Shown here one piece after another: positions 8,315 through 31,974 of a stretch of DNA of 34,212 nucleotides. Origin of the DNA: a virus; the IMG/VR virus record IMGVR_UViG_3300013286_000032, positions 1 to 34,212 of that record; one strand, 5' to 3'. The notes under the pieces were generated by a model. That model was not told the origin of the DNA. It did not search any database and saw nothing but the letters and a program-made list of their open reading frames with translations. Position numbers and translations under genes: made by a program. Every line of letters begins with the position of its first letter. Within the stretch, counting starts at the first letter, position 1.

Positions 8315-9025
8315 ATGTCTGTTTATGCATCAACACAGGTTGCACCGTATGTTTATATCTGCACTCACAAAACCACAGGAAAATTCTACATTGGCTACAG
8401 AGAAAGAAATGTATCGATGAATATTACATCTGATTTAGATTTTCCAATGTATCGTACATCATCAAAAGCAGTTAACAAAAAATTTAAAGAGTTTAATTGG
8501 ACTATTATTGCTGAATTTAAAACCGGTGTTGATGCCTATGATTTTGAACAACAACTAATTTACGAAAACTGGGATAATCCGTTGTTAATGAATGAATCCT
8601 GTCATTACGGTAAATCAAGATTTCGATCTGATCTCAAGGGTATTAAAAAATCTGAAAAACATAAAGAAAAATTAAAACAGGCAAGAAGATTACGGGCCCC
8701 TCATAGTGAAGAGACTAAACAAAAAATCTCAGATGGAAACAAAGGTAAAGTGGTACCAGAAATTTCTCGATTGCGTATTGCTTCTGCAAAAATTGGAAGC
8801 AATAATCCAAACTTTGGTAAATCGCCGTCTGCAACTACTACAAAAAAACGAAAATTATCATTAAAGAAATATTATCAAGAATTAAAAGAAAAAAATATAC
8901 CTCATCCATCCACCGGATTTAATCAAATTCGTGTGACTTGTACTTGTTGTAAAAAAACAATAGCAGTAAATATTTTTTCAAGATTTCACGGCAACAAATG
9001 TAAAGGAAATAAGAATGGCAACTGA
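8315..9025 (+). CDS. GIY-YIG homing endonuclease with NUMOD-type DNA-binding region, 236 aa
   Basis: A free-standing selfish endonuclease of the Seg/I-TevI kind. The GIY-YIG nuclease is at residues 12-30 (YVYIC ... FYIGY, then Arg30). The middle, about 125-170 (HSEETKQKISDGNKG ... NNPNFGKS), has the SxE/K and NxxFGK signatures of NUMOD3-type DNA-binding motifs. The C-terminus has a likely zinc site (CTCC ... H-x3-C). The gene is visibly richer in A/T and in AAA/AAT codons than its neighbours, as expected for a mobile gene. It lies between intact primase and helicase genes, overlapping the helicase start by 11 bases, so it is an intergenic insertion and not an intron. Confidence 0.9.
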   Translation: MSVYASTQVAPYVYICTHKTTGKFYIGYRERNVSMNITSDLDFPMYRTSSKAVNKKFKEFNWTIIAEFKTGVDAYDFEQQLIYENWDNPLLMNESCHYGKSRFRSDLKGIKKSEKHKEKLKQARRLRAPHSEETKQKISDGNKGKVVPEISRLRIASAKIGSNNPNFGKSPSATTTKKRKLSLKKYYQELKEKNIPHPSTGFNQIRVTCTCCKKTIAVNIFSRFHGNKCKGNKNGN

Positions 9026-10418
9026 ATACGGCATTGAAATACAAAAATTGTTTTTAGAGATGTGCTTACAGGATGCAGTATCGTATACAAGAATTGCAAA
9101 TATATACAATCCTGAAAACTTTGATCGAAGTCTAAGATCAGCCGCCGAGTTTATTGCCAAGCACAGCGACGACTACAAAACATTGCCGACTCGCGAACAA
9201 ATTTCTGCGGCAACTGGAGTCAAACTTGCGGATATTCCGGACCTGAATGAAGGCCACACTGAGTGGTTCATGGGTGAGTTTGAAGCATTTACTCGTAGAC
9301 AAGAATTAGAACGAGCAATTTTAAAGTCGGCAGACCTGTTGGAAAAAGGCGAATACGATCCTGTGGAGAAATTGATCAAGGATGCAGTTCAAATCAGTCT
9401 AACCAAGGACATGGGCACAGACTACTTTGAAGATCCTCGTGCTCGTATTAACCGATACTTTAATAGTGGTGGACAAGTAAGCACTGGCTGGCCCACCATG
9501 GATCGAATCTTGTATGGCGGCATGAGCCGTGGAGAACTTAATATTTTTGCAGGCGGTTCTGGATCGGGCAAGAGTTTGGTCATGATGAACATAGCCCTAA
9601 GTTGGTTGCAGGCCGGACTCAGTGGTGTGTATGTTAGTTTAGAACTTAGTGAAGAACTATGTTCACTAAGAACCGATGCAATGTTGTCGGGCATGAGTAC
9701 CAAAGATATTCGCAAAGACATTGACACAGCAGAACTTAAAGTCAAGCTGGTGAGCAAGAAAGCTGGACAATATCGTGTCAAGGCATTGCCAGCACAAAGC
9801 ACAGTGAATGATATTCGTAGCTATATTAAAGAAGTACAGGTTCAAACAGGAATTAAAGTGGACTTTATGATGGTAGACTATCTGGATTTATTAATGCCAG
9901 TGTCAGCCAAGGTAAGCCCAAATGATCTGTTTGTCAAGGACAAGTATGTTTCTGAAGAACTACGTAACTTGGCCAAAGAACTCAATGTATTATTTGTAAC
10001 AGCAAGTCAGTTAAATCGTAGTGCGGTAGAAGAAATTGAATTTGACCACAGTCATATTTCGGGCGGTATCAGTAAAATTAACACAGCGGACAATGTGTTT
10101 GGCATCTTTACAAGTCGTGCCATGCGTGAGCGTGGCAAGTATCAAATTCAGTGCATGAAGTCACGGTCAAGTACAGGTGTTGGTATGAAAATTGACCTAG
10201 ATTACAACATTGAAACCATGCGCATTACAGATCCAGGCGAGGAAGAAAATACTAATTTTAGCAAACCTAAGAATATCTACGAATCAATCAAGGCACAAAG
10301 TAAAGTTAATCAATCGGTAGAATCCGTTGATCAAGACAGCGGCGAAAATAGCAAAATCACTGCCGATGTACAAAGTGCAAAACTAAAACAATTGCTAGGG
10401 CAGATTAAATCCAATTAA
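9015..10418 (+). CDS. replicative DNA helicase, gp41/DnaB-like, 467 aa
   Basis: A hexameric 5'-3' helicase that unwinds the fork and activates the primase. The N-terminal helical domain (about 1-150) is followed by a RecA-type ATPase: Walker A GGSGSGKS at 180-187, Walker B in FMMVDYLDLL near 285-292, QLN sensor (ASQLNRSA), and a late segment GKYQIQCMKSRSS matching the DnaB family arginine-finger region. The length matches T4 gp41 (475 aa). The start ATG has the Shine-Dalgarno sequence AAAGGAA at 9001-9007 and lies inside the 3' end of the endonuclease gene. The C-terminal 60 residues are polar and probably flexible. Confidence 0.93.
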   Translation: MATEYGIEIQKLFLEMCLQDAVSYTRIANIYNPENFDRSLRSAAEFIAKHSDDYKTLPTREQISAATGVKLADIPDLNEGHTEWFMGEFEAFTRRQELERAILKSADLLEKGEYDPVEKLIKDAVQISLTKDMGTDYFEDPRARINRYFNSGGQVSTGWPTMDRILYGGMSRGELNIFAGGSGSGKSLVMMNIALSWLQAGLSGVYVSLELSEELCSLRTDAMLSGMSTKDIRKDIDTAELKVKLVSKKAGQYRVKALPAQSTVNDIRSYIKEVQVQTGIKVDFMMVDYLDLLMPVSAKVSPNDLFVKDKYVSEELRNLAKELNVLFVTASQLNRSAVEEIEFDHSHISGGISKINTADNVFGIFTSRAMRERGKYQIQCMKSRSSTGVGMKIDLDYNIETMRITDPGEEENTNFSKPKNIYESIKAQSKVNQSVESVDQDSGENSKITADVQSAKLKQLLGQIKSN

Positions 10419-10432
10419 GATACCTAAAAACT

Positions 10433-10440
10433 AATAAATA
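10433..10440 (+). promoter_or_regulatory. T4-type late promoter for the 10462-13470 cluster
   Basis: AATAAATA, with an expected start near 10446 and the first ATG at 10462. It fits late expression of the three coupled genes that follow. Confidence 0.45.
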
Positions 10441-10461
10441 ATAAAAAGGTTCTGGCCCAAA

Positions 10462-10710
10462 ATGCAAAAGAAAACCCGTAGTTTATTAGAAGAATTAGAT
10501 GCAATGTATATCGAGCGTGATAGTCGTCATGTGATCGAAAACCGTGCTTCTAACATTATCGCTAGTGCTATACGCTTGCTAGAACAAATTGACGAAAGCT
10601 ATACTCCTGAACAGGCTGATAATCTAACCCGTAAATTGATCAATGCTATTAAACTGCGCGACCCAGGCAAGTTCACTCGCTCAGTAAGGAAAACTGATGC
10701 AAATTCATGA
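10462..10710 (+). CDS. small hypothetical helical protein, 82 aa
   Basis: A charged, helical protein (MQKKTRSLLEELDAMY; a second helix IIASAIRLLEQIDE), with no cysteine or membrane segment. It heads a late cluster of three overlapping genes: its 3' end overlaps the next gene by 14 bases, a sign of coupling. Similar short proteins sit beside virion genes in marine T4-like phages in my memory, but no function is known. It could be a chaperone or scaffold-like partner of the next two proteins. Confidence 0.75.
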   Translation: MQKKTRSLLEELDAMYIERDSRHVIENRASNIIASAIRLLEQIDESYTPEQADNLTRKLINAIKLRDPGKFTRSVRKTDANS

Positions 10711-11596
10711 GTTAACACAGCGCCGTCATGTTGATGAAGGCGTAATGGATACTGCCAAAGCGGCCGCTTCTAAAGTGGGCAGCGCACTCAAAACTGGTGC
10801 TCAAACAGCTGGTAATATTGCCGGCAAAGTTGGCGCTGGGATTCAGGGTGCCAGGGCTGAGATTCAAGATGCAGGTGTTGCTAGACAAGCAACCGAATTA
10901 TCCAAGCGTGGATATGATTCTTGGTCCGCATACGCTAGACAACTAACTGCCCAATACGGCCAAGATCCTAAATTTAAAGACATTTACAAACAACAACTAC
11001 TGGCATTTGTACAGAAAAATTTATTAGGCGGAGCATACTTGCCTAACCTTACTAACAAAGATCAAATTTTAAAATCGGTAGATGACTTGGTCGCTGTAAG
11101 ATTTCCAGCAGGACTTAGCCCGGCAACCAATACACCTACACCAGCAGCTGATGCAAAGCCTCCTGTTATGCTAGGCGGAAAAAAATTAGATCCTAAAAAT
11201 CCCAACGATGCAAAAGTATTAGCTCAAATAAAAGCACAAGGTAAACTAAAAGAAACACGGTTACATGAAGCCGTGGACGTCAACAAAGAAAAACAACTAT
11301 TTCAAAAACTAGTCAAAGATTCTTTATTGGCCAGTGCCACAGTGGCCACCGGACAAACTACAGCAAATAACACTCCAGGCGGTGCTACTACCACTGCTAA
11401 CAAACAAGTACAAGATCCTGTATCAATGGTGCCAGATGTCCAGCAGGTCGAAAAAGTTAAGGCCAATGTAGACGAGCGTACCCTGGCTGCTGTAGGACAA
11501 GTGCTTAGACAAAATTATCAACTGGATCTGTCAATTCGCTCCACCGGCGACGATGCTGTGGATGCTTTATTATTGGCCATGGGATTTAAAATCTAA
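10697..11596 (+). CDS. probable virion-associated protein, 299 aa
   Basis: Unrecognised by family. The N-terminus (MQIHELTQRRHVDEG) carries an I-x-E tripeptide at residues 3-5, shared in form with the starts of the genes at 11596, 15410 and 16291. This resembles the L/I-x-E sites of the T4 prohead protease and the N-terminal capsid-targeting sequences. An Ala/Gly-rich amphipathic stretch follows (KAAASKVGSALKTGAQTAGNIAGKVG). The middle is helical, then low-complexity Pro/Ala/Thr. LKETRLHEA near residue 190 offers further L-x-E sites. The gene overlaps the next by one base. A role as an internal head or core protein is inference. Confidence 0.7.
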   Translation: MQIHELTQRRHVDEGVMDTAKAAASKVGSALKTGAQTAGNIAGKVGAGIQGARAEIQDAGVARQATELSKRGYDSWSAYARQLTAQYGQDPKFKDIYKQQLLAFVQKNLLGGAYLPNLTNKDQILKSVDDLVAVRFPAGLSPATNTPTPAADAKPPVMLGGKKLDPKNPNDAKVLAQIKAQGKLKETRLHEAVDVNKEKQLFQKLVKDSLLASATVATGQTTANNTPGGATTTANKQVQDPVSMVPDVQQVEKVKANVDERTLAAVGQVLRQNYQLDLSIRSTGDDAVDALLLAMGFKI

Positions 11597-13470
11597 TGCA
11601 ACTCAAAGAAGGCGGTAATGTATTCAAAGGCCCCGATGGCGAAGCCTTGACCCAACGCATCAATCAAATAGATGTTAAACCAACCTTGGCTTGGCTAGAA
11701 CAAATGTTGCCAGGACTTGATGTACAAGGTAATACCCTAGGATCAACTGGTATTAAACCCACCAGCGGTGACCTGGATGTTGCGGTAGATAGCAGTCAAC
11801 TGACCAAATTGCAATTAGTCACACGCTTACAACAGTGGGCGCAGAGTCATGGATTAAAACCTGAAGACTATGTAAAACAAACCGGTGCTGGAGTACATTT
11901 TAAAACGCCCATTGCTGGCACTCCAGCCAAGGGTTATGTGCAAACTGACTTTATGTTCCTTAAAAATATTCCTTGGTCAAAGTTTGTGCTTGGTGCCATG
12001 CCTGTAGATAGCCAATACAAAGGTCGCGAGCGTAATGTCCTAATGAACTCCTTGGCCAAGGTCATGGGTTACAAGTTGAATCAAATTGCCGGTATTGCCG
12101 ATCGCAATAGCAATGAAATTATCACGGATGATCCAGATCAAGTGGCCAAAATGTTATTGAATCCCCGTGCCACACGCGAGGACCTGGCCAGTGTAGAAAC
12201 GATTTTATCTGCATTAGAAAAAGATCCCAAGCGTGAAGAAAAATTAGCCGACTTCCGCAATCACATGGAACGAGAAGGCTTGCCATTCATGGAAAGCGAA
12301 TCAGCGCCATTATACCAAGAGGTGTCAGATGTAAATTTCCTGGCTCGACTGCGTGACCGTATTGTCAATCAAGGCATGCAGGTCATTGTAGAAGCTGCCA
12401 GTCCAAGAATTGAGCACCTGGAAGACCTAGTGTTTGAAAAAGGATCACGCGGTATTCAAGAAGCCATTGCCATAATTGAACACGCGGCAGAAAACACAGC
12501 CAAAACAACCACAGTCAAATGGGATGGCAAACCAGCCATTATATTTGGCCGTAACGAATCAGGCGAGTTTGTGCTGACTGATAAATCAGGATTTACCGCC
12601 AAAGGCTATCAGGGCCGTGCTACCAGCGTGGCACAGCTGGCCAACATTATGAACCAGCGTGGTAGTGGTCGTGGCGAACTAATTGCCATTTACGCCAAGC
12701 TATTTCCGTTGCTACGTGCGGCTACACCAGAAAACTTTAAAGGGTATGTACAAGGTGATTTGCTGTACACACAGGCACCACAAGAAATAAGTGGCAATTA
12801 TGAATTTAAGCCAAATGTTGTAGAATATCGTATTCCCATTGACAGCAAGCTAGGACAGCTGATCACCGGCACCGAAGTAGGAGTGGCCATTCATACTCGT
12901 TATAAAACTGCCGACAGTGATGCTGAGGCCATTGGCAATTTAAAACTAAATGCTGTGCCCGGATTACTGCTTATAGAACCCAGTGTTAAAGACATTCAAA
13001 ACGTCAAACCCGAGAGTCAACAGGTCAAGCAATTAAAACAACTGGTGCGAGCCAAGGGCCCGGCCATAGATGGCCTGTTTAATCCAGCAGAACTACGGGC
13101 AGCAGGTATTACAGATTTACCACAATTGTGCAAGCGATATATCAACAGTCGTATTGACACCAACTACGAAAATCTACTACCAGACTTTGGTGCTTGGTTG
13201 CAAAACAACACCACACCCCGCAAGTTTAACAACATTGTAGAATATCTACAAAGTCCTAGAAGTAACATGGACGGAATAGCTTCTGCTTTTACAGCATTTT
13301 TAGGCCTGCACGATTTAAAAATGGACATGCTTAAACAGCTAGATCTACAGCAGCCTGGACAAGAAGGTTGGGTACTTGCTACACCAGCCGGTCGTGCCAA
13401 ACTGGTAAACCGTTTTGGATTTAGTGCCGCCAATCGCGCCCAAAACAACCCAGAACTGGCAAATTCTTAA
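11596..13470 (+). CDS. Pol-beta-type nucleotidyltransferase fused to ligase-like nucleotidyltransferase, 624 aa
   Basis: Two catalytic domains. The first (about 25-240) has the nucleotidyltransferase signature LGSTG at 48-52, DLD at 59-61 and a third Asp in QTDFMF (D118), so the metal-binding triad appears complete. The second (about 265-540) resembles the covalent nucleotidyltransferase superfamily of DNA/RNA ligases and capping enzymes: KWDG at 308-311 as motif I, with later strands (EFVLTDKSG; KGYVQGDLLY; GVAIHTRYK) in plausible motif III-IV positions. It may process or seal nucleic-acid ends, or modify a protein; the substrate is unknown. It begins MQLKE with an L-x-E that could be a prohead-protease site, suggesting packaging and injection. 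The start is in a TAATG overlap. Domain calls come from motifs only. Confidence 0.7.
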   Translation: MQLKEGGNVFKGPDGEALTQRINQIDVKPTLAWLEQMLPGLDVQGNTLGSTGIKPTSGDLDVAVDSSQLTKLQLVTRLQQWAQSHGLKPEDYVKQTGAGVHFKTPIAGTPAKGYVQTDFMFLKNIPWSKFVLGAMPVDSQYKGRERNVLMNSLAKVMGYKLNQIAGIADRNSNEIITDDPDQVAKMLLNPRATREDLASVETILSALEKDPKREEKLADFRNHMEREGLPFMESESAPLYQEVSDVNFLARLRDRIVNQGMQVIVEAASPRIEHLEDLVFEKGSRGIQEAIAIIEHAAENTAKTTTVKWDGKPAIIFGRNESGEFVLTDKSGFTAKGYQGRATSVAQLANIMNQRGSGRGELIAIYAKLFPLLRAATPENFKGYVQGDLLYTQAPQEISGNYEFKPNVVEYRIPIDSKLGQLITGTEVGVAIHTRYKTADSDAEAIGNLKLNAVPGLLLIEPSVKDIQNVKPESQQVKQLKQLVRAKGPAIDGLFNPAELRAAGITDLPQLCKRYINSRIDTNYENLLPDFGAWLQNNTTPRKFNNIVEYLQSPRSNMDGIASAFTAFLGLHDLKMDMLKQLDLQQPGQEGWVLATPAGRAKLVNRFGFSAANRAQNNPELANS

Positions 13471-15459: not shown

Positions 15460-16291
15460 GGTTTTCGAAAGTTATTTTGGTAACAGTGTTCCTTTTGAAC
15501 AACTGACCCGTCGACAAGCCAATCACATGCTTGGTCGTGTTCGCGAGTTAATTCGTGAGCATCGCCGCCAACCAGCATTCCACCGCAGCGAACAGAATCC
15601 TGCCTACTTAAAACTAGTTGTTATGGAACAAGGGTTAGCCAGCAAGTTAAGTGAAGAAATGCCAGCAACTGCCGGTGCTGTTCCTACTGCCGGCGGGGTT
15701 GCTGCGCCTGCTGTTAATCCAGCCAACATGGCTGTACAATTGGCCACTAAGAAAAAACAAATTCAAGACGCTATCAAGGCCAAACAAACAGAAATTCAAC
15801 AACTGCAAAAACAATTGTCCAACCCAATGGCCATGGGCGAAACTCGTCAAAGTCAGCGTCGTCGTTTACGTGAATCAGAAGTACAACAAGCTCAAGTGGT
15901 CTTGGCCTCGCAAGACATGGTTGATCAAGTACAAAAGATGATTGAACAAGTAACAGCAATGCAGTTCAAAGACTTGCCAGCCCTGGTTGACCAAGTTAAG
16001 AATCAAATTGGTGCCGATCAAGCCATGCAGTTTAATCAAGACGCAACAGGCGCATTAAGTGGCCTGACACAAAATTTACAAGGTAGTAAAACTCAGTTGG
16101 AAGCAGCTCTTGGCGTGGTCACTGGCCAAGCCGCAGTTGTTCCAGGCGAAGATCTTGGTGCACCTGCTCCAGAATTAAGCGCAGCTGAATTGCCAGCTGA
16201 ATTACCAGCACCAGGCGAAGAAGAAATTGATGTTGACCTCGAAGAGCCTGCGGGCGGCGGTGCGGCAGATCTAGGTCGCAGTCGTAGATAA
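15410..16291 (+). CDS. probable head core/internal structural protein, 293 aa
   Basis: It begins MKLQELAVISPTKQ, with an L-x-E at residues 3-5 like three other late proteins here. The region MLGRVRELIREHRR ... NPAYLKLVVMEQGL is helical and looks conserved. A long coiled coil follows (KKKQIQDAIKAKQTEIQQL; QDMVDQVQKMIEQV), then a disordered acidic Ala/Pro/Glu tail. RRLRESEV near residue 150 gives another L-x-E site. The composition fits an internal scaffold or core protein processed by a prohead protease, but no family is recognised. A Shine-Dalgarno-like GAGGA lies just upstream at 15399-15403, and the stop overlaps the next ATG. Confidence 0.65.
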   Translation: MKLQELAVISPTKQAAKVFESYFGNSVPFEQLTRRQANHMLGRVRELIREHRRQPAFHRSEQNPAYLKLVVMEQGLASKLSEEMPATAGAVPTAGGVAAPAVNPANMAVQLATKKKQIQDAIKAKQTEIQQLQKQLSNPMAMGETRQSQRRRLRESEVQQAQVVLASQDMVDQVQKMIEQVTAMQFKDLPALVDQVKNQIGADQAMQFNQDATGALSGLTQNLQGSKTQLEAALGVVTGQAAVVPGEDLGAPAPELSAAELPAELPAPGEEEIDVDLEEPAGGGAADLGRSRR

Positions 16292-16626
16292 TGAGACTTG
16301 TTGAGTTTGCCACACCAGACTCACAGAAACTTTTGGCATTAACAAAGTTTCTGTCAGGCCGTGCCGACGATACAACAGCCAAAAAAGAAATCAGCCAAGC
16401 TGCGTTCATTGACCTGGCCAAAAGCCTTGGGGTGAGTATTAATCCAGAAAGTCTAGGCGATTTAATCAGTCAAGAACCACTTTCCAATGTGCTAGAACCC
16501 ATGGAACCAAATTCGGGAGTTGTTCGTTTCAAGGGCAATACCGAAGCCGAGACCGGCATGTCAGTAGACCAGGCTCGTGCAGTAGTAGATAGTAATGCCA
16601 AAGCGGCCATGAACCGCAGACAATAA
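16291..16626 (+). CDS. hypothetical late protein, 111 aa
   Basis: It begins MRLVEFATPDSQKLLALTKFL, again with L-x-E at residues 3-5. The protein is mixed helical and polar, and ends in a helix rich in Ala and Asn with two Arg (VDSNAKAAMNRRQ). No catalytic motif or membrane segment is seen. A TAATG overlap joins it to the preceding coiled-coil gene, so the two products probably act together. Function unknown. Confidence 0.75.
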   Translation: MRLVEFATPDSQKLLALTKFLSGRADDTTAKKEISQAAFIDLAKSLGVSINPESLGDLISQEPLSNVLEPMEPNSGVVRFKGNTEAETGMSVDQARAVVDSNAKAAMNRRQ

Positions 16627-16887: not shown

Positions 16888-17028
16888 ATGGCCGCGGGTG
16901 CGCCAATTTTACTTGGACAAAGAAATAACATACAATTTATTAAAGGTAGTGAAAATCGAAGTAAATGGCACACTTTTCAGCCATTTGATGTTGTAAAGTA
17001 TATTACAGGAGACACATATGGCCTATAG
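16888..17028 (+). CDS. hypothetical micro-protein, 46 aa
   Basis: The ATG directly follows the stop of the membrane micro-protein (TAAATG), and the frame overlaps the iscU start by 11 bases. The product (MAAGAPILLGQRNNIQF ...) has no cysteine and no membrane helix. It may be translated by coupling with the upstream gene. Coding status rests on position and on the absence of any other explanation for the 130 bases before iscU. It could also be an untranslated leader of iscU. Confidence 0.4.
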   Translation: MAAGAPILLGQRNNIQFIKGSENRSKWHTFQPFDVVKYITGDTYGL

Positions 17029-17395
17029 CGATGCGGTTCTTGATCATTATAATAATCCTAGGAATGTTGGAAGATTAGATGTAGAAGATAAGGATGTTGG
17101 CACGGGCTTAGTAGGGGCCCCTAGCTGCGGAGATGTTCTTAAGTTGCAAATCAAAGTCGAAGATGGGATTATCACCGATGCAAAATTTAAGACATACGGT
17201 TGCGGCTCGGCGATTGCTAGCTCAAGTCTCGTTACCGAGTGGGTCAAAGGCAAAACGCTTGAGCAAGCAGGATCGATTAAGAACTCTGCGATTGCGGAGG
17301 AACTTGCTCTGCCACCTGTCAAGATCCACTGCTCAATACTTGCTGAAGATGCGATTAAAGCGGCCATAGCTGACTATAAACAAAAACAACAGTAA
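17018..17395 (+). CDS. iscU: Fe-S cluster assembly scaffold IscU, 125 aa
   Basis: IscU is the scaffold on which the cysteine desulfurase IscS and an iron/electron source build [2Fe-2S] clusters, later handed to target proteins with the help of HscA/HscB. The protein is full length and nearly co-linear with E. coli IscU. All functional residues are present: Cys37, Asp39, Cys62, His104, Cys105, and the HscA-recognition motif LPPVK at 98-102. One residue is missing near position 49 compared with E. coli. A strong Shine-Dalgarno AGGAG lies at 17007-17011. No iscS, hscBA or fdx is in the window, so it probably works with host partners. Six of fifteen Ala codons are GCG, unusual for this phage, which hints at recent acquisition from a proteobacterial host. 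Confidence 0.96.
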   Translation: MAYSDAVLDHYNNPRNVGRLDVEDKDVGTGLVGAPSCGDVLKLQIKVEDGIITDAKFKTYGCGSAIASSSLVTEWVKGKTLEQAGSIKNSAIAEELALPPVKIHCSILAEDAIKAAIADYKQKQQ

Positions 17396-17397
17396 TA

Positions 17398-17718
17398 ATG
17401 ATCTCAGTTACGCCCAGGGCCGCAAGTAAAATTGTTAGTAATCTAGACCGCAGAGGTTCTGGCATAGGTATTCGCCTAGGCACAAGAACTACCGGGTGTA
17501 GTGGACTTGCCTATGTGTTAGAGTACGTGGATGCCACAGACGAGCACGATACCGTAATCAACTCCGATGGTTTTAAAATTGTGGTAGATCCCAAAAGCCT
17601 AGTTATCTTGGACAACTTACTGATAGACTACGTTCGCCAAGGACTCAACGAGGGATTTGAGTTTACTAATCCAGCCGAAAAAGACCGTTGCGGTTGCGGC
17701 GAAAGTTTTAGAATATAG
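17398..17718 (+). CDS. iscA: A-type Fe-S carrier IscA, 106 aa
   Basis: IscA-family proteins accept Fe-S clusters from the scaffold and deliver them to apo-proteins. The three cluster ligands are present: Cys34 in RTTGCSGLAY, and Cys98 and Cys100 in the C-terminal RCGCGESF. The sequence is closer to IscA than to ErpA or SufA (RLGTRTTGCSGLAYVLEYVD; LNEGFEFTNP). It begins 2 bases after the iscU stop, keeping the iscU-iscA order of bacterial isc operons. Its codons look more like the surrounding phage genes than those of iscU do, with no GCG for Ala. A-type carriers are known in some phages; the adjacent iscU is the more unusual partner. Confidence 0.95.
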   Translation: MISVTPRAASKIVSNLDRRGSGIGIRLGTRTTGCSGLAYVLEYVDATDEHDTVINSDGFKIVVDPKSLVILDNLLIDYVRQGLNEGFEFTNPAEKDRCGCGESFRI

Positions 17719-17723
17719 TCAAC

Positions 17724-17752
17724 TTGACAAACATCCAACTGTTTGTTATAAT
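17724..17752 (+). promoter_or_regulatory. sigma70-type promoter, leaderless type, for the nuclease gene
   Basis: -35 TTGACA (perfect) at 17724-17729, a 17-bp spacer, and extended -10 TGTTATAAT with the hexamer at 17747-17752. The ATG at 17759 follows exactly 6 nt later, and no Shine-Dalgarno sequence is present. Confidence 0.92.
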
Positions 17753-17758
17753 TACTTG

Positions 17759-18475
17759 ATGTACAATCCTAAATTTCAATATACCAAACTTGCTCGCGAA
17801 GAAGTGGCCGGGCGTCGCCTGTATGCCACACCAGATGGCAGCCGTGTTCCTAGTGTAACTACTATTCTTGATCGAACCAAGTCTGAAGAAAAAAAACAAA
17901 TACTGGAAAATTGGCGCCGGCGGGTAGGGCATGCCAATGCACAAGCAATCACTACAGAAGCAGCCAATCGTGGCACCCGAATGCATACCTACCTAGAAGG
18001 TTATGTTAAAGAGGGAGAGCTCAAAGATCGCGGATCAAATCCATTTTCGTGGCCTAGTCACGCCATGGCTGAAGTTGTTATCAATCAAGGCCTGTCTAAT
18101 GTTGACGAATTTTGGGGAGTAGAAGTTCCCCTGTACTTTCCAGAAGTTTATGCTGGAACCACAGACTGTGTGGGCATACATCAGGGCCAAGAAAGTATTC
18201 TTGACTTTAAGCAAACAAACAAGCCCAAGCGCCGCGACTGGATTGAGGATTATTTTTTACAATTAGCGGCCTATGCAGAAGCACACGATAAAATTCATGG
18301 AACTGCCATTAACAAAGGTGTTATTTTAATGGCAGTTAAACCTGATCTCAATGAGCAACAAGAAATTATTAAACCCCCAGAATACCAGGAATTCGTCGTA
18401 GAAGGCGATGAATTTCGGCATTGGAAACAAGAATGGTGGAAAAGGGTAGAGGCGTACTATCTGCTAAATAGTTGA
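17759..18475 (+). CDS. PD-(D/E)XK exonuclease, RecB/MGME1-like, 238 aa
   Basis: A DNA nuclease of the RecB-type PD-(D/E)XK family. The motifs are in order: RGTRMH (H76), the upstream Glu of GVEVPL (E122), GTTD (D136), DFK (D149, K151) and Q-L-x-A-Y (Q168). It has a single Cys, so it is not of the Fe-S Cas4/AddB type. It probably acts in processing or recycling DNA ends. I start at 17759 because a consensus promoter places the transcript start at this ATG; longer frames would run back through iscA. The stop is close to a late motif for the tailspike. Confidence 0.88.
   Translation: MYNPKFQYTKLAREEVAGRRLYATPDGSRVPSVTTILDRTKSEEKKQILENWRRRVGHANAQAITTEAANRGTRMHTYLEGYVKEGELKDRGSNPFSWPSHAMAEVVINQGLSNVDEFWGVEVPLYFPEVYAGTTDCVGIHQGQESILDFKQTNKPKRRDWIEDYFLQLAAYAEAHDKIHGTAINKGVILMAVKPDLNEQQEIIKPPEYQEFVVEGDEFRHWKQEWWKRVEAYYLLNS
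18463..18470 (+). promoter_or_regulatory. T4-type late promoter for the tailspike gene
   Basis: GCTAAATA, located at the 3' end of the nuclease gene. The predicted start is near 18476, giving a leader with AAGGA at 18484-18488 before the TTG start. Confidence 0.5.
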
Positions 18476-20548: not shown

Positions 20549-22870
20549 ATGCAGATTACAGTTGTAAAAAGAAGCGGTCAGCGAGAGCCATTGCATATTG
20601 AAAAGTGGCAAGCCCAGGTTGCCAAAGTCTGTAAAGGTATTGCTGATGTTAGTCAGTCCATGGTTGAGATCAAGGCCCAGTTGCATTTTTATGATGGTAT
20701 TACCACACAAGAGATTGATGGCATTACATTACGAGCCATCGTAGACCTTATTGATATAGAATCAAATCCCGACGTTGGCCATACCAATTATCAATTTGTT
20801 GCCGGTAAACAACGGTTATCAATGTTGAGAAAAGATGTCTATGGCACCTACGAACCTCCGCACTTGTACAGTATTGTAAAGCGTAATGTAGCCACCGGAT
20901 TGTATACTCCAGAACTGTTACAGTGGTATTCAGAAGAAGACTGGAACCGAATGAATGACATGCTGGATCATGAAAAAGATGAACAGTATAGCTATGCTGC
21001 AATTGAGCAGCTGATTGAAAAATATCTTGTGCGCAACAGAGCCACAAAGGAAATTTATGAAACTCCTCAGGTCAGATACATGGTGGCGGCAGCCACGGTG
21101 TTTCATCGGGAAGAACCTAACTCAAGTCGCATGCGTTACATCAAAGAGTATTATAACTGTGCCAGTGATGGCCTGTTCACTCTGGCTACTCCTGTTCTTG
21201 CTGGGCTCGGAACTCCTACCAAACAATTTTCAAGTTGTGTGCTTATTCGGGCCGATGATAACCTTGATAGTATATTTGCTAGTGGTGAAATGATGGCCAA
21301 GTATGCGGCCAAGCGAGCCGGCATTGGACTTGAAGTTGGCCGACTACGACCCTTGGGTGCTCCCATTCGCGGCGGCGAAGTAATGCACACCGGTATGGTG
21401 CCATTTCTTAAAAAATGGTTTGGTGATTTAAGAAGTTGTAGTCAAGGAGGTATTCGCAATGCAAGTGCTACTGTATTTTATCCTATTTGGCATTATCAGT
21501 TCGATGACCTTATTGTGCTTAAGAATAATCAAGGAACTGAAGAGACAAGAGTCCGCTTTATGGATTATGGAGTAGTGCTCAATGCCTTCTTTTGGCGAAG
21601 ATTCAAAAACAAAGAAAACATTACCTTCTTCGATCCCAACGAGGTGCCTGAACTGTATGAAGCTTTCTACAAAGACACTGCTCTGTTTGAAGAGTTGTAT
21701 GTTAAATTTGAAAAAAGAAAAGATCTAAGAACCAAAACCATGGCCGCCGAAGATGTGTTCAAAGGTGGCATACTCAAAGAGAGGACCGACACAGGTCGTA
21801 TCTATCTTGTGTACATTGACAATGTAATGAAGCAAGGACCGTTTGACCCAGAAGTTCACACAATCTATCAAAGTAACCTTTGTTGTGAAATTTTACTTCC
21901 TACCAAGAGTTTTGACCGCCTGGACGATCCCGAGGGCAGAATTGCGTTGTGTACTCTTGGCAGCATAAATTGGGGCGCTTTCCGTAACCCCGAAGACATG
22001 CGCCGTGCTTGCCGTATCCTACAACGCAGTCTATGTAATGTACTTGATTACCAGGACTTTTTGAGCATTCAAAGTAAACTCAGCAATGATGAAATCAGTC
22101 CTCTAGGTATTGGCATTACTAATCTTGCCTACTGGCATGCTAAACGTAGTTTACAATATGGTGAAAAAGATTCTCTCGCTGAGGTTAAAACCTGGATGGA
22201 ACATCAGGCTTTTTATCTAACAGAAGCCACGGTAGAGTTAGCCAAAGAGCGTGGCGCCTGTGTAGACTCGGCCAAGACTCGTTATGGCAAGGGCAAATTT
22301 CCTTGGGAACTTCGCGCCAAGGCAGTTAATGAACTAACAAATTTTGCTCCTGAATTAGATTGGGAAACTCTGCGTACTAATATGAAACAGTACGGAGTGC
22401 GTAATGCTACCTTGATGGCTGTGGCTCCAGTTGAATCAAGTTCGGTAGTGATCAATTCTACCAATGGTATTGAAATGCCAATGAGCCTGATCACAGTTAA
22501 AGAATCAAAGGCAGGTAGTTTAATTCAAGTGGCTCCGGAATACAACAAGTTAAAATCAAAATATCAGTTGATGTGGGAACAGAAAGATTGTGAAGGATAC
22601 ATTAAAACAGCGGCAGTTATTGCGGCCTATGTTGATCAAAGTATCAGTACAAACACTTTTTACAATCCGGCGCACTTTGCAGATCGTAAAGTGCCAACTA
22701 CATTAATTGCTCGAAACTTAATGTTAGCACATCGTTGGGGATTAAAGACATTCTACTACAGTTTAATTAACAAGACTGGAAGCAAAGGACAAGATGAACC
22801 AGTACCAGCACCATTGTTCACAGTGATAGATTTTGATGAAGAAGAAGATTGCGAAGCATGCAAATTATAA
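20549..22870 (+). CDS. nrdA: class I ribonucleotide reductase, large (alpha) subunit, 773 aa
   Basis: Reduces ribonucleoside diphosphates to deoxy forms for phage DNA synthesis. The N-terminal ATP-cone (about 1-95, starting ITVVKRSGQREPL) suggests overall allosteric control. The catalytic core has FSSCVLI (first redox Cys), SNLCCEI and LCTLGSINWG (active-site and second redox Cys), and the loop region ASGEMMAKYAAKRAGIGLE. The C-terminus ends CEACKL, the Cys pair that passes electrons from glutaredoxin. The length matches E. coli NrdA (761 aa). nrdB and a glutaredoxin gene follow directly. A weak promoter-like pair (TTGAGC, 18 bp, TAATAC) ends at 20521. Confidence 0.96.
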   Translation: MQITVVKRSGQREPLHIEKWQAQVAKVCKGIADVSQSMVEIKAQLHFYDGITTQEIDGITLRAIVDLIDIESNPDVGHTNYQFVAGKQRLSMLRKDVYGTYEPPHLYSIVKRNVATGLYTPELLQWYSEEDWNRMNDMLDHEKDEQYSYAAIEQLIEKYLVRNRATKEIYETPQVRYMVAAATVFHREEPNSSRMRYIKEYYNCASDGLFTLATPVLAGLGTPTKQFSSCVLIRADDNLDSIFASGEMMAKYAAKRAGIGLEVGRLRPLGAPIRGGEVMHTGMVPFLKKWFGDLRSCSQGGIRNASATVFYPIWHYQFDDLIVLKNNQGTEETRVRFMDYGVVLNAFFWRRFKNKENITFFDPNEVPELYEAFYKDTALFEELYVKFEKRKDLRTKTMAAEDVFKGGILKERTDTGRIYLVYIDNVMKQGPFDPEVHTIYQSNLCCEILLPTKSFDRLDDPEGRIALCTLGSINWGAFRNPEDMRRACRILQRSLCNVLDYQDFLSIQSKLSNDEISPLGIGITNLAYWHAKRSLQYGEKDSLAEVKTWMEHQAFYLTEATVELAKERGACVDSAKTRYGKGKFPWELRAKAVNELTNFAPELDWETLRTNMKQYGVRNATLMAVAPVESSSVVINSTNGIEMPMSLITVKESKAGSLIQVAPEYNKLKSKYQLMWEQKDCEGYIKTAAVIAAYVDQSISTNTFYNPAHFADRKVPTTLIARNLMLAHRWGLKTFYYSLINKTGSKGQDEPVPAPLFTVIDFDEEEDCEACKL

Positions 22871-22887: not shown

Positions 22888-23988
22888 ATGAGTCAATCAC
22901 AATACAATTTAAAAACAAAAACAGATTACTTACATCGCAAGATGTTCTTGGACCCAGCTGGACCAGTTACTATCCAACGCTTTGAAGAAGTCAAGTACAA
23001 CAAACTCACAAAGTTTGAACAAGAAGCTCGTGGATTCTTTTGGGTCCCAGAGGAAATCTCGTTGACCAAAGATGCCAACGATTTTAAAGAAGCCACAGAC
23101 ACAGTGCGTCATATCTTTACCAGTAACCTGCTGCGTCAAACAGCCCTGGATAGTTTACAAGGTCGTGGTCCTAGTCAAATCTTTACTCCAGTGTGTAGTA
23201 TTCCGGAATTAGAAGCATTAATGTATGCCTGGACATTCTTTGAAACAAATATTCATAGTCGTAGTTACAGTCATATTATTCGTAATATCTATAACGTGCC
23301 CAAGGATGAGTTTAACAAGATTCATGACATTCAAGAGATTGTTAGCATGGCCTCAAGCATTGGCTTGTATTACGATCGCCTGCACATGATCAACTGTCGT
23401 AAAGAGCTGTTGGAAAAGTTTGATGAGCAACTACACATCAATGCTATCTGGTTGGCACTTAACGCAAGTTATGGCCTAGAAGCATTCCGCTTCATGGTTA
23501 GCTTTGCCACAAGTTTAGCCATGGTTGAAAATCGTATCTTTATCGGTAATGGTAATATCATTGGCCTGATTCTTCAAGATGAAATCCTACACAAGGATTG
23601 GACCGCATGGTTAATCAATCAAGTGGTCAAAGAAGATCCACGGTTTGCCCGTGCCAAGGTCGAATGCGAAGCAGAAGTATATCAAATGTACCTGGATGTT
23701 ATCAGAGAAGAAAAACAATGGGCTGATTATTTGTTTAAATTTGGCCCAGTGATTGGTCTTAACGCTAATATTCTCAAAGACTTTGTTGATTATACAGCAG
23801 TTGGAGCACTCAAGGAAATTGGTATCAAATATCAAACTCCTGCGCCCAAGACCACACCCATTCCTTGGTTTAACAAGCATGTTAACACAAGTAACAAACA
23901 AACTGCACTCCAGGAGTCCGAATCAACTAACTATGTTATAGGAGTAATGTCAGATAATTTAGATTACACTGCATTGCCATCATTATAA
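22888..23988 (+). CDS. nrdB: class I ribonucleotide reductase, small (beta) subunit, 366 aa
   Basis: Holds the di-iron/tyrosyl-radical cofactor. Family landmarks are present: TALDSLQGR with the first Asp ligand, HSRSYSHI with the His ligand and the radical Tyr, LEAFRFMVSF and DEILH with the later Glu and His ligands. One point is odd: helix B reads E-T-N-I-H, so Glu and His are separated by three residues in place of the usual E-x-x-H, leaving Thr at the usual ligand position. The C-terminus (NLDYTALPSL) is the tail that binds NrdA. It begins 17 bases after nrdA, with a weak purine-rich ribosome site. Confidence 0.95.
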   Translation: MSQSQYNLKTKTDYLHRKMFLDPAGPVTIQRFEEVKYNKLTKFEQEARGFFWVPEEISLTKDANDFKEATDTVRHIFTSNLLRQTALDSLQGRGPSQIFTPVCSIPELEALMYAWTFFETNIHSRSYSHIIRNIYNVPKDEFNKIHDIQEIVSMASSIGLYYDRLHMINCRKELLEKFDEQLHINAIWLALNASYGLEAFRFMVSFATSLAMVENRIFIGNGNIIGLILQDEILHKDWTAWLINQVVKEDPRFARAKVECEAEVYQMYLDVIREEKQWADYLFKFGPVIGLNANILKDFVDYTAVGALKEIGIKYQTPAPKTTPIPWFNKHVNTSNKQTALQESESTNYVIGVMSDNLDYTALPSL

Positions 23989-24001: not shown

Positions 24002-24226
24002 ATGACAAAAGCTCTTGTGTGGTCAAAAGATAACTGTCCGTTTTGTGTGCAGGCAAAAAACTTGCTAAAGTTAAAAAACATTGAATTTGAAGAACGCAAC
24101 ATCAATGGCGACTGGACTCGCGAACAACTACTGGAAGCTGTGCCCACGGCAAGAACTTTACCCCAGATCTTTCTAGACGATAATTATATAGGCGGGTTCA
24201 CAGAACTACGACGACATTTATCCTAG
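24002..24226 (+). CDS. glutaredoxin, 74 aa
   Basis: A dithiol glutaredoxin that would supply electrons to the ribonucleotide reductase, like T4 NrdC. The active site CPFC is at residues 12-15, the cis-Pro is in ARTLPQIF, and GGFTEL is the glutathione-binding loop. It starts 13 bases after nrdB with AAGGAA upstream, so the order nrdA-nrdB-glutaredoxin forms one functional unit. The length is typical for the family (about 80 aa). It could also assist Fe-S transfer, but monothiol CGFS glutaredoxins usually do that and this is not one. Confidence 0.93.
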   Translation: MTKALVWSKDNCPFCVQAKNLLKLKNIEFEERNINGDWTREQLLEAVPTARTLPQIFLDDNYIGGFTELRRHLS

Positions 24227-31544: not shown

Positions 31545-31754
31545 ATGGTAAAGAAACAAGTAAGCAAGCTCAGCGATAAGTTAGAAAAGGTAAACGAAAA
31601 CTACACCATCAACATGTATGACAATGGTTTCATGATTGAGGTCAGTGGTCGAGATTCGGATGACGAATATAAAACTGCCAAGATCATGGTTCCCACTGTT
31701 GAACAATTGATTGAATTGGTCAAAGAAGCTGCCGAAATGGAACGAGATTCCTAG
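31545..31754 (+). CDS. small hypothetical protein, 69 aa
   Basis: Charged protein with an N-terminal helix (KKQVSKLSDKLEKVNE), a short beta part (YTINMYDNGFMIEVSGRD) and a C-terminal helix (VEQLIELVKEAAEMERD). This helix-strand-strand-helix layout is common in small T4-like phage proteins of unknown role. It ends two bases before the CDGSH-like gene. Confidence 0.75.
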   Translation: MVKKQVSKLSDKLEKVNENYTINMYDNGFMIEVSGRDSDDEYKTAKIMVPTVEQLIELVKEAAEMERDS

Positions 31755-31755
31755 C

Positions 31756-31974
31756 ATGATGGCCAAGCCAGGCGAAGTTGGATTGTGCGGGTGTGGTCGC
31801 AGTCCCACTGGTAAATGCATAGGCTGGCATGCTCTTAGTGAAGACATGTATCGGCACCACCAAATGCTATGGCTTGAGGAGGAAGAGCGCAAAGATAATG
31901 AGCTTGCAGAATATCAAAAACAAGCACAAGAGCTTTGGTCTGACAGTTGCACAGCCCCAAGGACTAAAAAATGA
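31756..31974 (+). CDS. small Cys/His protein with CDGSH-like metal motif, 72 aa
   Basis: Residues 11-25 read C-G-C-G-R-S-P-T-G-K-C-I-G-W-H, giving C-x-C-x7-C-x3-H. CDGSH-type [2Fe-2S] proteins use C-x-C-x8-C-x3-H (three Cys and one His), so this is one residue shorter and has G-W-H in place of G-S-H. It could bind a [2Fe-2S] cluster or zinc. The remainder is a charged helix (EEEERKDNELAEYQKQAQEL). I start at 31756; a second ATG at 31759 is equally possible, and earlier in-frame codons would overlap the preceding gene. The stop overlaps the next ATG. The metal is inferred from spacing only. Confidence 0.7.
   Translation: MMAKPGEVGLCGCGRSPTGKCIGWHALSEDMYRHHQMLWLEEEERKDNELAEYQKQAQELWSDSCTAPRTKK

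Follow-up and report, generated by a model that had tools for sequence, protein, structure and literature searches.

A phage gene pair for an iron–sulfur scaffold and an A-type carrier is widespread and often lies near genes for DNA building blocks

Introduction

Why would a phage carry its own genes for an iron–sulfur (Fe-S) cluster scaffold and carrier, and which proteins would they serve? The question is raised by an IMG/VR virus record of 34,212 bases, analysed here over its full length (the window), in which iscU is followed directly by the gene of an A-type carrier. Phage Fe-S assembly genes are already known. The relevant section of Nishimura et al. 2017 (PMC5332604) describes 16 marine viral genomes with such genes, several of them called T4-like, with a carrier in 14 and IscU in 6, so at least four must hold both. 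There, the proteins served by these genes were proposed to be Fe-S proteins of both phage and host, with radical-SAM enzymes and Cas4 as possible clients. These genomes are like the window in having IscU and A-type carrier genes, but, unlike what we report here, adjacency of the two genes, a split between ErpA and IscA types, and a linkage to ribonucleotide reductase (RNR) are not mentioned in that section. The HMO-2011-type phages are described as carrying iscU and erpA (PMC9038755), and they thus resemble the window in having scaffold and insertion-protein genes, although they are a different phage group by name and the passage does not state that iscU and erpA occur in one genome. OM43 phages carry sufA (PMC10580990). 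The pair found in the window is widespread, and it often lies near genes for DNA building blocks. Because IscS and chaperones are missing at the locus, the pair lends itself to asking what share of the ISC pathway can come from outside, and the gene orders make RNR cofactor assembly one directly testable answer to the question of which clients are served.

Results and Discussion

The window contains an intact iscU gene (17018–17395, plus strand, 125 amino acids), with AGGAGA at 17007–17012 on its 5′ side, and, on the same strand and 2 bases after the iscU stop, an intact gene for an IscA-like A-type carrier (17398–17718, plus strand, 106 amino acids). The earlier note on this DNA had described two complete, adjacent genes in the bacterial iscU–iscA order with a 2-base gap, the IscU ligands and LPPVK motif, and the three Cys of the carrier. 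All of these were found, the IscU residues at the positions given there, so that the observation of the gene pair is confirmed, while its interpretation is partly supported. The IscU protein scores 174.4 bits against Pfam NifU_N (cut-off 22) and passes the NCBIfam equivalog model for IscU, TIGR01999, with 220.3 bits (cut-off 192.4). Cys-37, Asp-39, Cys-62, His-104, and Cys-105, which we take to be the cluster ligands, are present, as is LPPVK at 98–102, presumably the motif recognised by HscA. The protein is predicted from its sequence to bind a cluster and to work with IscS and HscA. It also matches PHROG 8429 (NifU-like Fe-S assembly protein) with 144.1 bits, and its relatives of solved structure are IscU/NifU-like chains, including human-type ISCU. 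A 46-residue ORF overlapping the iscU start was discarded; its sole match in 83 sequences was the window's own stretch.

The second protein scores 66.1 bits against Pfam Fe-S_biosyn (PF01521, cut-off 26.3) and 101.6 bits against the NCBIfam subfamily TIGR00049 (cut-off 58.8), and it has Cys-34, Cys-98, and Cys-100. It matches PHROG 17776, which has no function name, with 124.7 bits, and its relatives of solved structure are SufA and YfhF, the latter presumably E. coli IscA under an earlier name. Among the subtype models, IscA (TIGR02011) scores highest at 141.8 bits, with SufA at 102.8 and ErpA at 61.4, but the cut-off for TIGR02011 is 150.6. Thus, the earlier naming of this gene as iscA stands as regards the A-type family and the best subtype, but strict ‘IscA’ is narrowly missed, and ‘A-type carrier, IscA-like’ is the safe name.

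Phage genes are found all along the window. They include a UvsW-like helicase, a primase, a DnaB-type helicase, an exonuclease, a tail-spike-like protein, NrdA, NrdB, a glutaredoxin, a PAAR protein, and a DNA ligase, together with the first part of a ClpX-like gene; the names UvsW and ClpX are our own assumption. A small phage gene at 16291–16626 (plus strand) precedes the pair in close relatives. The gene of a PD-(D/E)XK exonuclease (17759–18475, plus strand) is a frequent 3′ neighbour; it was assigned by synteny and by a match to the PHROG 298 exonuclease obtained with the longer ORF 17657–18475. A NUMOD3/GIY-YIG-like homing endonuclease gene is present at 8315–9025, with the primase and DnaB genes on either side. 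A small Cys-rich ORF at 31711–31974 holds CGCGRSPTGKCIGWH, which we take to be a CDGSH-type Fe-S motif minus one residue; it was rejected as an Fe-S client, with no match in Pfam or NCBIfam. By DnaB, Pseudomonas phages of 285–288 kb come closest among annotated phages, at 50% identity, and the top annotated exonuclease match is a 60-kb record (49.6%), followed by phages of 337–367 kb (about 44%). A host assignment by way of annotated phages was rejected, since the nearest DnaB, NrdA, and exonuclease are each less than 60% identical.

A scan of IMG/VR for IscU gave at least 600 pattern matches, of which at least 593 were confirmed; the 80 best loci were retained for analysis. The exonuclease gene of the window occurs together with IscU in 37 of these best 80 of at least 593 loci, and many of the 80 also share small genes upstream, among them the one at 16291–16626, and NrdA/NrdB downstream. 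Some of the phage loci, upstream sets, and alignment rows used in this work are one contig fetched twice, or near copies. The earlier note had proposed an IscU search and a tree with host IscU, and in a tree with bacterial IscU (210 of 212 rows, at least 110 residues, with long rows trimmed to the last 128) the phage copies cluster, the phage labels needing 9 changes vs 63.8 in shuffles. In the tree of all carriers (193 of 199 rows, 95–115 residues), where the bacterial carriers come solely from the fetched isc loci, the phage labels need 3 changes vs 57.1 in shuffles. With the ErpA-type loci taken out (168 of the 193 rows), they need 1 change vs 53.7, and a branch with support of 98 separates the phage proteins from the bacterial ones. 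A deep reading of the IscU tree was rejected because it has too few columns, with 11 of 191 inner branches starred; the poor branch support is due to the shortness of the protein.

Annotated phage records with an IscU match number 17, and two of them were inspected. One of them, C48C1, a complete genome of a phage listed under Kyanoviridae, has an IscU match and no carrier match. The other (L083, CAKLQF020000009.1), labelled Acinetobacter phage MD-2021a, contains a complete isc operon among chromosome-type genes. This ‘phage’ entry counts in favour of the rival view that the pair stems from host-chromosome contamination or from misassembly. For the pair studied here, however, the identical gene order, flanked by phage genes left and right, recurs in many separate contigs, and the phage copies cluster in both trees. 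We therefore give contamination or misassembly practically no chance, and the pair is phage DNA.

The phage pair has the iscU–iscA order and the motifs in common with the bacterial isc operon (iscR-iscS-iscU-iscA-hscB-hscA-fdx). Unlike that operon, none of the best 80 of at least 593 phage loci gave iscR, iscS, hscB, or fdx with baits taken from it. The hscA bait matched only an Hsp70 gene in two of these loci (L002 and L003), and HscA was rejected there, the Hsp70 gene typed in L002 being DnaK (NF001413, 983.3 bits). As a control, the baits were applied to 80 bacterial IscU loci, where iscS was found in 75 and hscA in 69. These absences are local ones: flanks extended to at most 10 kb, many of the best 80 phage loci span 4–10 kb, and the window is a fragment. 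Thus, a complete ISC system, with iscS, hscB, hscA, and fdx beside iscU, occurs in none of the best 80 of at least 593 loci, and what had been noticed in the window, a pair without iscS, hscBA, or fdx, holds for these relatives as well. The L002 viral contig carries a full-length DnaK gene at 10181–12115, about 6 kb past iscU and the carrier gene.

With no sulfur donor, ferredoxin, or chaperones alongside the pair, host IscS and HscBA are likely relied upon. We suggest, with a probability of about two in three, that the cassette plugs into host IscS and HscBA and sustains Fe-S supply in infection, this supply possibly serving dNTP synthesis. The basis of the plug-in reading is the genes themselves, their intact motifs, the phage context, purifying selection, co-occurrence of the two genes, and the linkage to RNR genes described below. 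Each biochemical step and the client proteins we infer. Loading of the phage IscU would fall to host IscS, with ferredoxin; release of the cluster, to host HscA and HscB acting at LPPVK; and its delivery to apo-proteins needed in infection, to the phage carrier. The most likely benefit would be that Fe-S supply is upheld once host expression has been shut down, when clusters would be demanded instead by nucleotide and DNA synthesis under phage direction and, in relatives, by radical-SAM enzymes that the phages encode.

The pair is real and looks functional. The ligand positions are kept in 126–129 of 129 phage IscU rows, LPPVK in all 129, and the three Cys in 123 of 123 phage carrier rows. In a sample of 107 non-redundant loci out of 119 phage loci, the median pairwise dN/dS is 0.10 for phage IscU (307 pairs) and 0.32 for the phage carrier (547 pairs), or 0.26 (357 pairs) without the ErpA-type loci. 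Thus, the phage genome holds a host-like gene under purifying selection, which makes it an auxiliary metabolic gene. Among the fetched bacterial loci, the closest IscU shares 83% identity with the window IscU and the closest carrier 63% with the window carrier, a comparison in which the choice of loci by IscU favours IscU. An IscU so close to the host type is what would be expected of a competitor for host partners, and the scaffold and carrier might instead sequester clusters or compete for IscS/HscA so as to alter IscR signalling or host respiration. However, the cluster ligands, which a mere decoy would not need, are kept, and we consider such host manipulation very unlikely.

The correlation between IscU and carrier distances is 0.18–0.20 over all phage loci, vs 0.634 in bacteria. 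Without the ErpA-type loci, r is 0.345 in phages, and 0 of 999 permutations gave a value as high; the reading that phage IscU and carrier distances are almost uncorrelated was rejected, since it is partly an artefact of mixing IscA- and ErpA-type carriers. The phage correlation is below the bacterial one, which suggests that the two genes have often been exchanged separately and counts against the plug-in reading. On one view, the conserved partners in the host constrain IscU, and the carrier is the part that adapts or is exchanged. Carrier exchange is visible in one lineage (L025), which pairs IscU with ErpA.

How regularly do the two genes occur together? Exonuclease loci were counted where at least 2.5 kb was available upstream (63 of 75 newly fetched; 5 more of the 80 exonuclease loci found were already in the locus set). 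IscU is present in 45 of these 63, in 44 of them with a carrier, and 18 have neither. Where longer records lacked IscU next to the exonuclease, ten were searched over their whole length, and IscU was found elsewhere in 5 and was absent in 5; these records are fragments, one is cut by the contig end, and two (L205 and L209) look like near copies. In a set of 43 hand-chosen long records of about 30 kb or more, IscU is present in 38, and an A-type carrier accompanies it in 36 of the 38; the two IscU-positive records that lack a carrier count against the plug-in reading. Two of the five IscU-negative records hold a carrier only. Thus, the pair travels together yet can separate. One record of 36.8 kb (L020) was left out of this set; its 12-kb locus has no nrd gene.

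Two types of carrier, IscA-like and ErpA-like, accompany phage IscU, and 12 of 155 loci hold both, with types set by best bait and some loci being near copies. The family model was used for L025 only, where ErpA scores 145.7 bits (cut-off 117). Relatives of the window also carry extra genes in the gap between iscU and the carrier gene or 3′ of iscA. Among 20 such ORFs scanned, seven gave no match and one encodes another carrier; the matches include radical-SAM enzymes, acetyltransferases, P-loop kinase-like proteins, a deaminase, an HNH endonuclease, and a flavin monooxygenase-like protein. The view that a scaffold and carrier pair is much less usual in phages than a carrier was overstated, as such pairs are in print and at least 593 IscU matches were confirmed in IMG/VR.

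Are radical-SAM enzymes the clients? Radical-SAM matches occur in 30 of the 43 long records, 24 of them over the family cut-off, with up to 15 per record. They are present in 27 of 38 IscU-positive and in 3 of 5 IscU-negative records, and none was found in the other 11 IscU-positive records, among them the 152-kb G001, or in the other two IscU-negative ones. Radical-SAM-type genes lie between iscU and iscA in L031 (2979–4676), L032 (10933–13590), and L171, and directly 3′ of iscA in L165 (4369–5994). The scores of L165 and L171 are slightly below the Pfam cut-off, and some of the genes of L031, L032, and L165 carry a B12-binding domain.

The frequency of these genes, their location within or right after the pair in four loci, and the proposal of phage Fe-S clients in the section of PMC5332604 cited above all agree with the idea that the pair exists to mature phage-encoded radical-SAM enzymes. 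However, radical-SAM genes lie within 1.6 kb of iscU in 6 of 27 records where 3.2 are expected (p 0.09), and proximity was rejected as proof of a client relationship because it shows no excess over chance. The IscU-positive records without any radical-SAM gene also argue against this idea. The window fragment itself contains neither a radical-SAM gene nor Fer2, so that no client is identified there, which counts against the plug-in reading as well. We regard service to radical-SAM enzymes as the reason for the pair as quite unlikely.

Downstream of the pair, the window contains nrdA, for the large subunit of a class I RNR (20549–22870, plus strand; PF02867, 358.4 bits), nrdB, for a class Ia-like small subunit (22888–23988, plus strand; PF00268, 132.1 bits), and a gene for a dithiol glutaredoxin with CPFC (24002–24226, plus strand; PF00462, 55.2 bits). 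Alignment of the window NrdB to 7ai8 shows that the Tyr and metal-ligand positions of E. coli class Ia NrdB are kept; the roles of these residues are assumed by us. The window order, iscU-iscA-exo-..-nrdA-nrdB-grx, is one of about five arrangements of the cassette relative to nrdA/nrdB seen in the best 80 of at least 593 loci. The others include nrdA-iscU-carrier-nrdB, nrdA-nrdB-iscU-carrier, nrdA-nrdB-grx-iscU-iscA, and nrdA-carrier-iscU-iscA-nrdB. In L025 (8195–12345), nrdA-iscU-erpA-nrdB is a single gene run, in which iscU begins at 10001, one base after the end of the nrdA ORF at 10000, and erpA and then nrdB follow. The distance between the nrdA and iscU matches is the same in L019, L059, and L066.

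RNR was found in 17 of the 23 records obtained with the IscU query, and in 15 of these 17 it lies within 7 kb of iscU, where 3.9 would be expected at random positions; the records are related, not independent. Among those longer than 100 kb, RNR lies within 7 kb of iscU in 6 of 6 (0.42 expected). With one record per arrangement, a choice made post hoc, RNR lies within 2 kb in 3 of 6 (0.37 expected). Radical-SAM genes, which are other cargo of such records, have no comparable tie, with 4 of 48 within 7 kb where 5.8 are expected (11 records). A literature search of partial coverage turned up no description of the RNR linkage, and we do not claim that it is unpublished.

The gene orders, the closeness that radical-SAM genes lack, and the class Ia-like character of the window NrdB suggest that the pair might mainly help in assembly and repair of the diferric-tyrosyl cofactor in the class I RNR of the phage. 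It would do so by maturing host ferredoxin, or by delivering iron–sulfur units, and dNTP supply would thereby be sustained in replication. Also in its favour, in E. coli the ferredoxin YfaE reportedly maintains this cofactor (Wu et al. 2007). No phage Fer2 ferredoxin was found in the 43 phage records, while 12 of 14 control genomes were positive, so host ferredoxin would be needed. This absence weakens the RNR reading, as do the two RNR-bearing records in which RNR is 19 and 30 kb away from iscU and the lack of any nrd gene within 7 kb in 8 of 25 loci that extend at least 7 kb to either side. Furthermore, RNR was not seen in 6 of the 23 IscU-query records (fragments of 40–100 kb), which counts against the plug-in reading too, and the linkage may merely mirror a shared nucleotide-metabolism module. 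The dependence among records and the selection of one per arrangement with the data already seen also bear against it. Mainly serving RNR is therefore a possible purpose of the pair, if on balance an unlikely one. As a more general proposal, which we put forward tentatively and think rather unlikely, a minimal host-pluggable Fe-S line (IscU with an IscA-type carrier, an ErpA-type carrier, or both) would be an accessory of class I RNR, and separate lineages would have put the cassette beside or inside nrdA-nrdB because building and repair of the radical cofactor limits dNTP supply.

How might the cassette be expressed? The earlier note gave the pair its own promoter, and for the window this is not borne out: the region 5′ of iscU has a sigma-70 score of 9 of 12, near the 8.4 of shuffled sequence, and the sole 12/12 site follows iscA. 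Of 115 distinct upstream regions, 12 have a score of at least 11 within 120 bases of iscU, vs a mean of 0.1 in resamples; all 12 belong to relatives. The cassette may thus be driven by host-type promoters in some relatives. The 12/12 sigma-70-type promoter-like site of the window (17724–17752, plus strand) lies between iscA and the exonuclease gene, with TG ahead of the second hexamer. A score of at least 11 within 60 bases 5′ of the exonuclease gene occurs in 8 of 87 loci, the window included. The second hexamer of the window site ends 6 bases ahead of the exonuclease ATG at 17759, which would mean a leaderless message or a later start.
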